The position numbers were made by a program, and so were the translations under genes. Shown piece after piece: positions 8,522-40,635 of a stretch of DNA of 64,000 nt. Position 1 is the stretch's first letter; each line of letters opens with the position of its first letter. The stretch spans positions 1-64,000 of the forward strand of contig CAMYLA010000027.1 of NCBI GenBank assembly GCA_947259095.1, in the 5' to 3' direction. Under the pieces are notes generated by a model. It saw nothing but the letters and a program-made list of their open reading frames with translations, was not told the origin of the DNA and made no database searches. This stretch comes from an uncultured Acidimicrobiaceae bacterium (lineage in GTDB: Bacteria > Actinomycetota > Acidimicrobiia > Acidimicrobiales > SZUA-35).

Positions 8522-9550
8522 TCAGCGGAGTTCGAGACGGCCCGAACCCGATCGGGTCGTGCCGACCTCGGCCGCCGTGAGGCCGGCCTCGGTCAGGGCC
8601 CGGAGTGCGGATTCGGCTCGATCGGCGTCGACGCCGAAGATCAGGCCACCCGAGGTTTGGGCGTCGGCCAGCAGCAGCACGTCCAGCTCGGCTGTGCCAC
8701 CCCGGTCCAGTCGGTCCTCGACCGAGCGGAGATTCCGGCGTGAGCCTCCGGGGATGAAACCCTCCTCGGCCAGGGCCCGGACGCCGTCGAGGATCGGAAC
8801 CCTCTCGACGGTGAGGGTGACGTCGATCCGGGACTCGAGCGCGGCCCGGCCGAGATGGCCCAACAGCCCGAAGCCGGTCACGTCGGTGGCGCCGGTTGCG
8901 CCGGCCGCCAGGGCCACCCTGGCGGCCTCGGCGTTCAGCGTTGTCATCGAGGCCACCGCGGTGTCGATCAAACCCTGATCGGCCCGGTCCTGTTTGATGG
9001 CGGTGGAGGCCACGCCGATGCCGAGCGGTTTGGTGAGGATCAGCCGCTGGTCGGCTCGGAAGCCGGCGTTGGTCAACAGCCGGTCCGGGTGGACCTCGCC
9101 CAGGACGGCCAGGCCGAACTTCGGTTCGGGGTCGTCGACGGTGTGGCCCCCACCGATGACGAACCCGCCCTCGGCGGCGATCTCGGCCGCGCCGGCCAGG
9201 ACGTCGCCCAGCAGCTCCGGTGGGAGCTCGTCGTTGTTCCAGCCGACGAGGTTGAGCGCCAGCAGCGGGCGACCACCCATGGCGTAGACGTCCGACACCG
9301 AGTTGGCGGCGGCGATCCGACCCCAGGCCGCAGCGTCGTCGACGATCGGGGTGATGAAATCGGCGGTGAACACCAGCGCCCGGTCCTCATCGAGGCGCCA
9401 CACCGCAGCGTCGTCACCGGTCGAGGTGCCGACCAGCAGCCGCTCGTCTCCGGTGTTGGGTAAACGGCGCAGAACCTGCGCCAGCTCGTCAGGTGCGAGC
9501 TTGCACGCTCAACCGGCTCCGTGGCTGAACTGCGTGAGCCGTCGTACCAT
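8522..9550 (-). CDS. selD: Selenide, water dikinase containing a UGA-encoded selenocysteine
   Basis: SelD makes selenophosphate from selenide and ATP. A conventional reading starts only at about 9403, but in the same frame an ATG at 9550 gives MVRRLTQFSHGAG followed by TGA (9509-9511) and ACKLAPDEL. This is the SelD active-site loop GAG(C/U)xCK, with UGA exactly at the catalytic Cys/Sec residue (position 14), followed by Cys16 and Lys17. The frame then continues through GTSTGDDAAVW and GGGHTVDD to a normal C-terminus, giving 342 residues. A strong GGAGGGAGG ribosome site precedes the ATG. A stem-loop follows the UGA. The 5' region would be missed by standard gene calling. Confidence 0.93.
9483..9501 (-). 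promoter_or_regulatory. Candidate bacterial SECIS hairpin in selD
   Basis: Starting 8 nt after the UGA, AGCTCG (9501-9496) and CGAGCT (9488-9483) form a perfect 6-bp stem around the 7-nt loop CACCTGA. The distance from UGA to loop fits the short bacterial SECIS recognised by SelB. Judged by eye; not folded computationally. Confidence 0.5.
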
Positions 9551-38941: not shown

Positions 38942-39742
38942 TCAGCGACCCTCGAAGGCGGGCTGGCGGCGCTGGCCCATGGCGGCAACGCCCTCTTTCC
39001 AATCCGCGGTGTTGCGGAGGCGATCCTGTTCCTCGCGTTCACGATCGGTGGCGGCCCGAATGGCCGCCGGCAGATGACCCCGCATCGTCTCACGGATCGA
39101 TGCCACCGCCAGGGGGGCCGATCCTGCGATCTCGGTGGCCCATTCCGTGGCCACGAGGCGGATGTCGTCGTCCTGGTCGGCCAGCCGATCGAGCAGCCCC
39201 AGTTCTGCTGCTTCGGTGCCCTTGATCCGCTTGCCGGTGTAGAGCAGGTCCAGTGCGTGTTGTTGACCGACGATGGCCGGCAAGGTCACCGTCAGTCCGA
39301 AGCCTTGGTGGAAACCGAGCCGGGCGAAGTTGGCGGTCATCCGGGTGCCGGGGCCTCCGACCCGGAAGTCGGCCATGCAGGCCAGCCCGAGCCCCCCGCC
39401 CACCGATGCTCCCTGGACCGCTGCCACCACCGGGGTGTTGGCCGCAAACAGCCGCACCGCTTCGTCGTAGATGTGGCGGGGTGGGCCGTCGGCGTCGGCA
39501 TCGACCCGTTCGGAGGTGAGCTTGGGGTCCTTGTCGTCCAGGGCGGCACCGGCACAGAAGTTCTTGCCCTGGCTGCCAAGCACGATGCAGCGGGCATCGG
39601 TGTCGGCCTCCACCGCCTCGAAGGCGTCGGCCAGTGAGCCGAGCATGGAGAGACTGAAGAAATTATGGGGTGGTGTCTGGACCTCCACGGTTGCCACGTG
39701 GTTCTGGTCGACTTCGACGGAAACAACTCCGAATTGAGGCAT
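38942..39742 (-). CDS. Enoyl-CoA hydratase/isomerase family protein
   Basis: A 266-residue crotonase-fold protein. FCAGAALD and GASVGGGLGLACMADFRV provide the two oxyanion-hole strands. The usual catalytic Glu pair is not obvious: the position after ADFRV region reads ARLGFHQGFG, so activity other than simple hydration is possible. It probably acts in fatty-acid or aromatic acid breakdown. TAAGGT (39749-39754) lies 6 nt before the ATG. Confidence 0.88.
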   Translation of the reverse strand: MPQFGVVSVEVDQNHVATVEVQTPPHNFFSLSMLGSLADAFEAVEADTDARCIVLGSQGKNFCAGAALDDKDPKLTSERVDADADGPPRHIYDEAVRLFAANTPVVAAVQGASVGGGLGLACMADFRVGGPGTRMTANFARLGFHQGFGLTVTLPAIVGQQHALDLLYTGKRIKGTEAAELGLLDRLADQDDDIRLVATEWATEIAGSAPLAVASIRETMRGHLPAAIRAATDREREEQDRLRNTADWKEGVAAMGQRRQPAFEGR

Positions 39743-39802: not shown

Positions 39803-40264
39803 TCAGCGCTGGGCCGCAGCCAGGGTGCTCAGGGCCTGGGCGCCGTAGCCGGCCGGGTCGGTCACCTCGTCGGCGGCGGCGATCTTGCGATCGGGGTCGA
39901 TCAGGTAGGCGATCCGCTTCGGGTAGTCGGCGAACTTCTCGGCCGGGTCCCGCAGAACCTGGTAGGCGGCCCCCACCGCCTTGTCCTGGTCGCTGAGCAA
40001 CGGGAACGGGAAGTTGTGCTCGTCCTTGAACGACTTGTTGTCGGCCGGTGTGTCGAACGAGATGCCGACGACCTGACAGCCGGCGTCTGTGAACTGCTGA
40101 GCCTGATCACGCAGGCTCTGTCCCTGCAGCGTTCAACCGGGGGTGCCGGCCTTGGGGTACCACCACAGCAGCGTCCAGCCGCCGTCCTGGTCCGACAGGG
40201 TGAACGGTTGCCCGTCCTGGTCGTTCACGGTGAAATCGGGAGCTTCGCTTCCTACGTCCAGCAT
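39803..40264 (-). CDS. Peroxiredoxin (BCP/AhpC-TSA type) with UGA-encoded selenocysteine at the peroxidatic site
   Basis: ATG 40264 opens MLDVGSEAPDFTVNDQDG, a typical peroxiredoxin start. The active-site loop reads WWYPKAGTPG, then TGA (40133-40135), then TLQGQSLRDQAQQF. In ordinary homologues the residue after TPG is the peroxidatic cysteine (TPGCT). The same frame continues uninterrupted through VVGISFDTPADNKSFKDEHNFPFPLLSD to a normal C-terminus, 153 residues in all with Sec44. No Cys lies five residues after Sec, so the BCP-type resolving Cys is absent; Cys63 could serve. AAAGG precedes the ATG. Standard gene calling splits or truncates it. Confidence 0.93.
40108..40131 (-). promoter_or_regulatory. 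Candidate bacterial SECIS hairpin in the peroxiredoxin gene
   Basis: Right after the UGA, CGC-(U)-GCAGG pairs with CCUGCGUG (8 bp, one G-U, single bulged U at 40128) around the 7-nt loop GACAGAG. The bulged U five pairs below the loop resembles the feature SelB needs in known bacterial SECIS elements. Judged by eye. Confidence 0.55.
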
Positions 40265-40380
40265 TGCCGACCTTTCTGTTGCATCGGAACGATGACCTCG
40301 CCGTCCCGTTTCGTTCGTCCGGCAAGGGTATCGCTCGGCCACAGGTTGGCCGCGACCCCGAAACCGGCGAAGATGGTCCC

Positions 40381-40635
40381 ATGTCCGATTTGGAAACGCT
40401 GCCGGTGGTCGATCCGATCGTCGATCCCACGCTGGATGATCCGATCCTTGATGACGGGGACCACGAACGGTTCGCCCACTACGTGCGAAAGAGCAAGATC
40501 CTGCCCAGCGCCATCGACGGCACTGCGGTCAGGGCGTTGTGCGGCAAGAAGTGGGTACCGAACCGAGACCCGAAGAAGTTCCCGGTCTGTCCGGAGTGCA
40601 AGGACATCTACAACAACCTGCGCGATCCCAAGTAG
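40381..40635 (+). CDS. DUF3039 protein
   Basis: An 84-residue protein with HYVRKSKILPSAIDGT, ALCGKKWVPNRDPKKFPVCP and ECKDIY. The three cysteines form a probable zinc-binding site (C...CPEC). DUF3039 is a small family characteristic of actinobacteria; function unknown. ATG 40381 removes a shadow extension. Confidence 0.88.
   Translation: MSDLETLPVVDPIVDPTLDDPILDDGDHERFAHYVRKSKILPSAIDGTAVRALCGKKWVPNRDPKKFPVCPECKDIYNNLRDPK

Follow-up and report, generated by a model that had tools for sequence, protein, structure and literature searches.

A probable selenocysteine-containing BCP/PrxQ-like peroxiredoxin with a predicted SECIS hairpin in an uncultured Acidimicrobiaceae bacterium

Peroxiredoxins that carry selenocysteine (Sec) at the active site are an established selenoprotein family. 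A 2005 survey reported them among Sargasso Sea data, with 43 sequences under COG1225 (PMC1088965). The family was listed in 2006 (PMC1794560), counted at 91 proteins in 78 organisms in 2016 (PMC5029168) and included in a 2026 review (PMC13188914). Members share a TxxU motif with the peroxidatic Sec and the PF00578/COG1225 domain. AhpE of Mycobacterium tuberculosis (1xxu, 4x0x) is a one-Cys peroxiredoxin, reduced by mycoredoxin-1 and mycothiol according to PMC4360819. The BCP/PrxQ enzymes, among them Bcp1, BcpB and the PrxQ of X. campestris, use a cysteine in a TPGxT active site. In atypical 2-Cys PrxQ proteins the resolving cysteine lies at Cp+5 or in helix 3. PrxU (NF040737, peroxi_PrxU) is presumably also a Sec form of peroxiredoxin.

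Here we analyzed a stretch of 64,000 nucleotides (the window) on contig C27 of a draft Acidimicrobiaceae assembly, which comprises 229 contigs and is flagged as 7.1% contaminated. The initial annotation had placed a peroxiredoxin with UGA at the peroxidatic site in the interval 39803-40264. That interval is right, and the gene lies on the minus strand, which had been left unstated. Its ATG start is at 40264-40262 and its stop codon, a TGA at 39805-39803, is included in the interval. Translation of the minus strand gives MLDVGSEAPDF...YPKAGTPGUTLQG..., 153 residues in all, and then TGA; the plus strand gives a different sequence. The AAAGG ahead of the start codon is, by its sequence, probably the ribosome binding site of the gene. 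Feature coordinates are collected in Table 1.

Table 1. Features of the window discussed in the text, with the basis for each
Feature	Position	Strand	Basis
Sec-peroxiredoxin gene (BCP/PrxQ-like, 153 aa)	39803-40264	minus	Translation with TGA as U; Pfam AhpC-TSA; fold
In-frame UGA, read as Sec, residue 44 (T41-P-G-U44)	40133-40135	minus	Same-site TGA in relatives
Predicted bacterial SECIS hairpin; 7-bp stem GAGCCUG/CAGGCUC, loop CGUGAU (40111-40106)	40099-40118	minus	Covariation; synonymous shuffles; energy; spacing
Hairpin with bulged U	40108-40131	minus	Can fold, -9.6 kcal/mol; overlaps the SECIS hairpin, which lies further 3'
Cys63 codon, the only other Cys of the peroxiredoxin	40076-40078	minus	Translation
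Probable ribosome binding site AAAGG	40271-40275	minus	6 nt before ATG, read by eye
DUF3039 gene, divergent	40381-40635	plus	Pfam DUF3039, 102.4 bits; start codon chosen by eye
Enoyl-CoA hydratase/isomerase gene, downstream on the same strand	38942-39742	minus	Pfam ECH_1, 148.1 bits
selD domain with in-frame TGA 9511-9509 (SHGAGUACK)	8618-9541	minus	TIGR00476, 361.2 bits; 1 TGA inside; translation

The protein matches Pfam AhpC-TSA at 124.3 bits over residues 4-130 (cut-off 26) and Redoxin at 71.5 bits. The AhpC-TSA match spans residues 4-130, so the reading frame is unbroken before and after the UGA, as had been claimed. Together with the PF00578 domain, the published motif PxxxTxxU is present as P37-KAG-T41-PG-U44. 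In an alignment of 81 sequences in which Sec and Cys alike are written as C, T41 and site 44 are invariant and P37 is nearly so. The TPGU of the protein aligns with the TPGC of PDB homologues and of Cys relatives, which bears out the earlier proposal that UGA occupies a BCP-type peroxidatic site.

By sequence, the protein's top hits in the PDB are AhpC/TSA and BCP proteins (5enu, E 4e-20). An AlphaFold2 model built from the 81 sequences has a mean pLDDT of 97.9 and resembles most closely Bcp1 of Sulfolobus (3drn, TM 0.90, 31% identity) and BcpB of M. tuberculosis (5epf, TM 0.89, 34%). AhpE ranks lower (1xxu, TM 0.88, 32% identity). It shares the fold but uses Cys, and its sequence match (1e-11) is weaker than that of the best BCPs (4e-20). 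No NCBIfam model exceeds its cut-off among the 10 families listed by the profile search; the best, NF006960 (thioredoxin-dependent thiol peroxidase), scores 96.4 bits against a cut-off of 140. The PrxU model matches at 54.6 bits, far under its 270-bit cut-off, and its profile is longer (233 positions). In both predicted fold and sequence the protein appears closest to the BCP/PrxQ subfamily, from whose described members it differs in having Sec for Cys.

The same codon recurs in relatives. A six-frame search of 148 genomes, this one included, gave a match in 148/148, and the best 50 loci were read. TGA stands exactly at the codon 44 site in 46 of these 50, distributed by hand count over 43 genomes. 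Three others have a Cys codon (L060, L071 and L072) and one has Ser TCA (L066). Named genomes were scanned as well and yielded 378 relatives, of which the best 80 comprise 78 TGA and 2 TGC loci. The two sets overlap, with 37 identical proteins common to both. By title, 48 of the best 80 are from Acidimicrobiia, 74 from Actinomycetota and 3 from Myxococcota (titled Deltaproteobacteria). The part of the peroxiredoxin downstream of the UGA remains conserved in relatives.

A selA match was found in 42 of the 43 genomes with a TGA peroxiredoxin versus 56 of 105 other genomes (Fisher p 2e-8, a statistic that ignores relatedness). Among the 42, one match (G034) is a fragment only, at 48 bits, and another (G002) falls just under the cut-off. 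The single genome with a TGA gene and no selA match (G100) is 78% complete and in 750 contigs. With the same TGA in 46 of the best 50 loci, the UGA at site 44 is not there by chance. Among viral contigs, 62 stretches fit a peptide pattern and none encodes a relative of the peroxiredoxin.

The gene's neighbors were compared in the loci of the same best 80 of 378 relatives. In 25 of the 80, the opposite strand carries a DUF3039 match, in some cases more than 1 kb away. An enoyl-CoA hydratase/isomerase match is present in 10 of the 80, eight of them directly downstream at 57% identity or more.

The predicted SECIS of the gene is the hairpin at 40118-40099, which lies 21 nt after the UGA and has a folding energy of -10.5 kcal/mol. 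PMC13188914 gives as rules for bacterial SECIS elements a loop of 3-9 nt, a stem of 4-16 bp, G in loop positions 1-2, a spacing of 16-37 nt and an energy of -7.5 or lower. With a loop of 6, a stem of 7 and G at the second loop position, the hairpin conforms to every one of these published values. Held to a fixed register, 81.1% of its cells pair versus 77.4% in shuffles, and its covariation score is 0.251 versus 0.192 +/- 0.015 (0/500 shuffles as high in each case). Every slid version of the hairpin is lower in both measures. In this register, two of five covariation measures are not above shuffles, namely pairs changed on both sides (3) and further pair types (9).

A count in one fixed register makes the stem look weaker than it is, since the 3' arm is displaced by one base from subclade to subclade, with loops of 5, 6 or 7 nt. 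Pairing was therefore also counted with three registers, and the same freedom was given to synonymous-codon shuffles. Counted this way, 308 of 322 stem cells pair in 46 loci, against 230.9 +/- 6.3 (maximum 246) in 500 shuffles. Twelve Cys homologues without the hairpin pair in 51 of 84 cells versus 49.2 expected. The main clade described below has 88 distinct Sec members. Across these, 582 of 616 stem cells pair; all seven pairs form in 68 members, at least six in 81 and fewer than six in 7. Those with fewer than six include three loci titled Deltaproteobacteria (2, 3 and 4 pairs) and L157 (4 pairs), although all keep CGTGA. The Arg codon in the loop is CGT in 88/88, a codon used for 61 of the 676 Arg residues encoded elsewhere in the same genes (9%) and that stands at this position in 1 of 14 non-Sec rows. 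Fold energy in a single 27-nt window is weaker evidence, with a mean z of -1.75 in the 46 loci (48% at p <= 0.05) and -0.73 in the 12 Cys homologues.

A different hairpin, with a bulged U, had been noted after the UGA in the initial annotation, with no coordinates given. Taken as 40131-40108, it can indeed fold but does not covary: 69.8% of its cells pair in 46 relatives versus 69.6% in shuffles, 229 of 500 of which are as high.

Sec machinery in the genome had been set beforehand as a test, and it was found. SelA (404 bits) and SelB (275 bits) are adjacent on contig C168, tRNA-Sec is on C99 (64.8 bits, over the gathering score, anticodon tca, that is UCA), and one SelD shares contig C27 with the peroxiredoxin gene. 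The best match of each of these four is over its curated cut-off; the contigs other than C27 that hold selA/selB and tRNA-Sec could be foreign. The SelD of the window (selenophosphate synthetase) is probably itself a selenoprotein, in agreement with an earlier claim that the peroxiredoxin is the second selenoprotein in the window, where we presume SelD to be the other. A further SelD, also with an in-frame TGA, is at C83:1757-2680 (L012). Having two SelD genes could be due to contamination of the assembly (7.1%), or the genome may truly hold a second copy. The hairpin loop is GGUUC in the window SelD and CGUGU in the further one. Among 31 SelD loci examined, 23 were recognized as Sec forms by motif; in these, 137 of 138 stem cells pair and GU occupies loop positions 2-3 in 23/23.

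Other genes of the assembly also contain an in-frame TGA. A mycoredoxin/glutaredoxin-like gene (L210/L212, C11:190092-190334, plus strand) has it at the first active-site Cys (WRPGUPHC). It matches TIGR02200 at 54.4 bits, below the cut-off of 89.5, and a search of 61 genomes gave some match to it in 42. Eight of 20 loci were read: the TGA is at the same place in three other genomes (L213, L214 and L215), and L216-L219 have Cys. No GU-loop hairpin was among the best six for L210 in a search without loop-G and spacing filters. A second Sec-peroxiredoxin family is represented by L093 (C20:33089-33520, minus strand), with TPGUT or TSGUT followed by ES, and in relatives by L078, L080 and L084-L090. 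This family lacks the CGUGA hairpin, and L093 gave none in the filtered hairpin search. Over 11 loci (the relatives plus L076 and L081, not L093) there is a fold signal near +72 to +104 after the UGA, with a mean z of about -2. This position is beyond the usual 16-37 nt, and the family possibly uses a different SECIS class.

Three further genes, L095 (C68), L096 (C4) and L097 (C38), are Prx-like or thioredoxin-like with an in-frame TGA (HULPC, WUPPC and WUPKC, respectively). Their hairpin loops are GGUCA, GGUCG and GGUCG. Unless contamination explains them, they would point to an actinobacterial genome rich in selenoproteins. The hairpin search in these other UGA genes required G in loop positions 1-2 and a spacing of 16-37 nt, so that only the U after the G is free evidence. 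A SelB favoring [N]GU loops would fit most, though not all, of the UGA genes of the genome.

In a quick tree of 113 proteins, built without bootstrap, the window protein falls in a main clade of 91 rows (SH-aLRT 98), mostly Acidimicrobiia by title. All members are Sec forms except L185 (TGC), L198 (TGC) and L066 (Ser). Mapping Sec, Cys and other as states onto the full tree takes a minimum of five changes, and Cys63 takes a minimum of seven. L198, the G025 locus, stands among Sec forms with TGC, a Cys at +5 and 4 of 7 stem pairs, in a genome without a selA match; by sequence this looks like a Sec-to-Cys change with loss of the Sec trait, although L198 and L066 are long rows joined in the tree and their placement is unsure. 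At the peroxidatic site L066 (G017:C39) carries Ser (EPGS). It forms 3 of the 7 hairpin pairs even though selA is present in its genome, and it is perhaps a non-peroxidase descendant.

We read the gene as encoding a Sec-containing BCP/PrxQ peroxiredoxin in which SelB reads the 40118-40099 hairpin and Sec44 is peroxidatic and is reduced by an external thiol, as a 1-Sec enzyme; from the sequence evidence we put the probability of this reading at roughly 0.86. SelB carrying Sec-tRNA(UCA) would bind the hairpin downstream of the UGA through its CGUGAU loop, and the ribosome would insert Sec at residue 44 instead of the peroxidatic Cys, a step that the comparison with relatives supports. The selenolate of Sec44 would then attack a hydroperoxide to form a selenenic acid, as the peroxiredoxin fold and the PxxxTxxU motif suggest. 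As happens in 1-Cys peroxiredoxins, a thiol from outside the protein would reduce the oxidized Sec44, with mycothiol/mycoredoxin or thioredoxin as candidate reductants. Cys63, where present, may modulate or protect, and would not be a general resolving residue.

Could the UGA be an artifact, or simply a stop? TGA is one base from TGC and TGT, and in a draft of 229 contigs a Cys codon might have been misread, or might have mutated in a pseudogene. This is extremely improbable given that the same codon stands in 46 of the 50 best loci, in frames that continue beyond it and beside a covarying hairpin. A true stop, or the reading of UGA as another amino acid, would leave a truncated or non-Sec protein. 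Since the peroxiredoxin gene itself ends with TGA, this genome probably uses UGA as a stop too, and Sec insertion in general competes with termination. Yet this UGA falls exactly at the catalytic Cys site, the coding region downstream of it is conserved, a hairpin lies beside it and the Sec machinery is present; moreover, in L198, from a genome that gave no selA match, the codon is TGC and just 4 of the 7 pairs form. Termination or a different amino acid is accordingly very unlikely.

The remaining alternative concerns how Sec44 is recycled. Position +5, which we take to be the PrxQ resolving position, is Q in the window protein and is Cys in only 1 of the 88 distinct clade members (not Cys in 87), unlike in BCP/PrxQ, and the protein does not by its sequence qualify as an atypical 2-Cys PrxQ. 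With the usual resolving Cys at +5 gone, oxidized Sec44 would be reduced by an external thiol. Alternatively, Sec44 and Cys63 could form an intramolecular selenenylsulfide that thioredoxin reduces. The initial annotation had named Cys63 the only obvious resolving thiol; it is the sole other Cys in the protein, and it is kept in all three members of the group (support 99) that holds the window protein. Its role as a resolving thiol fares less well, since position +19 is Cys in 37 of 88 distinct members and Ala in 38. Cys63 is thus missing in 51, 40 have no other Cys at all, and Ala occupies the position in the close members L044-L046. The model places residue 44 in the opening turn of helix 42-53; helix 55-60 comes next, and strand 63-69 starts with residue 63, so a direct Sec44-Cys63 bond would seem to need unfolding. 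Such a bond is unlikely in the window protein, as is a general resolving role for Cys63 in the clade; its absence in 51 of 88, together with the modeled positions of residues 44 and 63, favors a 1-Sec cycle with an external thiol.

Mycothiol/mycoredoxin as the partner in this 1-Sec cycle is a guess. The genome has an MshC-like match of 423.5 bits (cut-off 485.1) and a mycoredoxin-like match of 82.2 bits (cut-off 89.5). Neither is specific, because the same searches match 14/14 and 11/14 control genomes, respectively, with one over the cut-off in each case. A further idea is that the peroxiredoxin is recycled by mycothiol and the Sec-containing mycoredoxin-like protein on C11 (WRPGUPHC), as an all-selenium version of the AhpE/mycoredoxin-1 relay. 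This is quite improbable: the TGA in the mycoredoxin-like gene is found in 4 genomes only, the gene has no simple GU-loop hairpin and the MshC match is below its cut-off.

The Sec peroxiredoxin with TxxU is thus already published as a family, of which the window gene, on its sequence, is a further member; the initial annotation had likewise noted that BCP-type forms are known. Compared with that family by motif and domain, the window protein may stand out by its place in a 91-row clade with its own CGUGA-loop SECIS. In the open literature, outside of which lie most subscription papers, we found none that brings together selenocysteine, peroxiredoxin and Acidimicrobiia. One paper listed there, on a sponge metagenome, combines selenocysteine with Acidimicrobiales.

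What is added here is the clade, a well-supported SECIS and the missing resolving thiol. The Sec-peroxiredoxins of this clade occur across the order to which the window's genome belongs, and the covariation in their SECIS is unusually clean. Ordinary gene callers would probably cut the genes of this clade at the UGA. The L198/G025 member shows an apparent Sec-to-Cys change, has Cys at +5 and lacks the hairpin; it would serve as a natural experiment for learning what Sec replaces.
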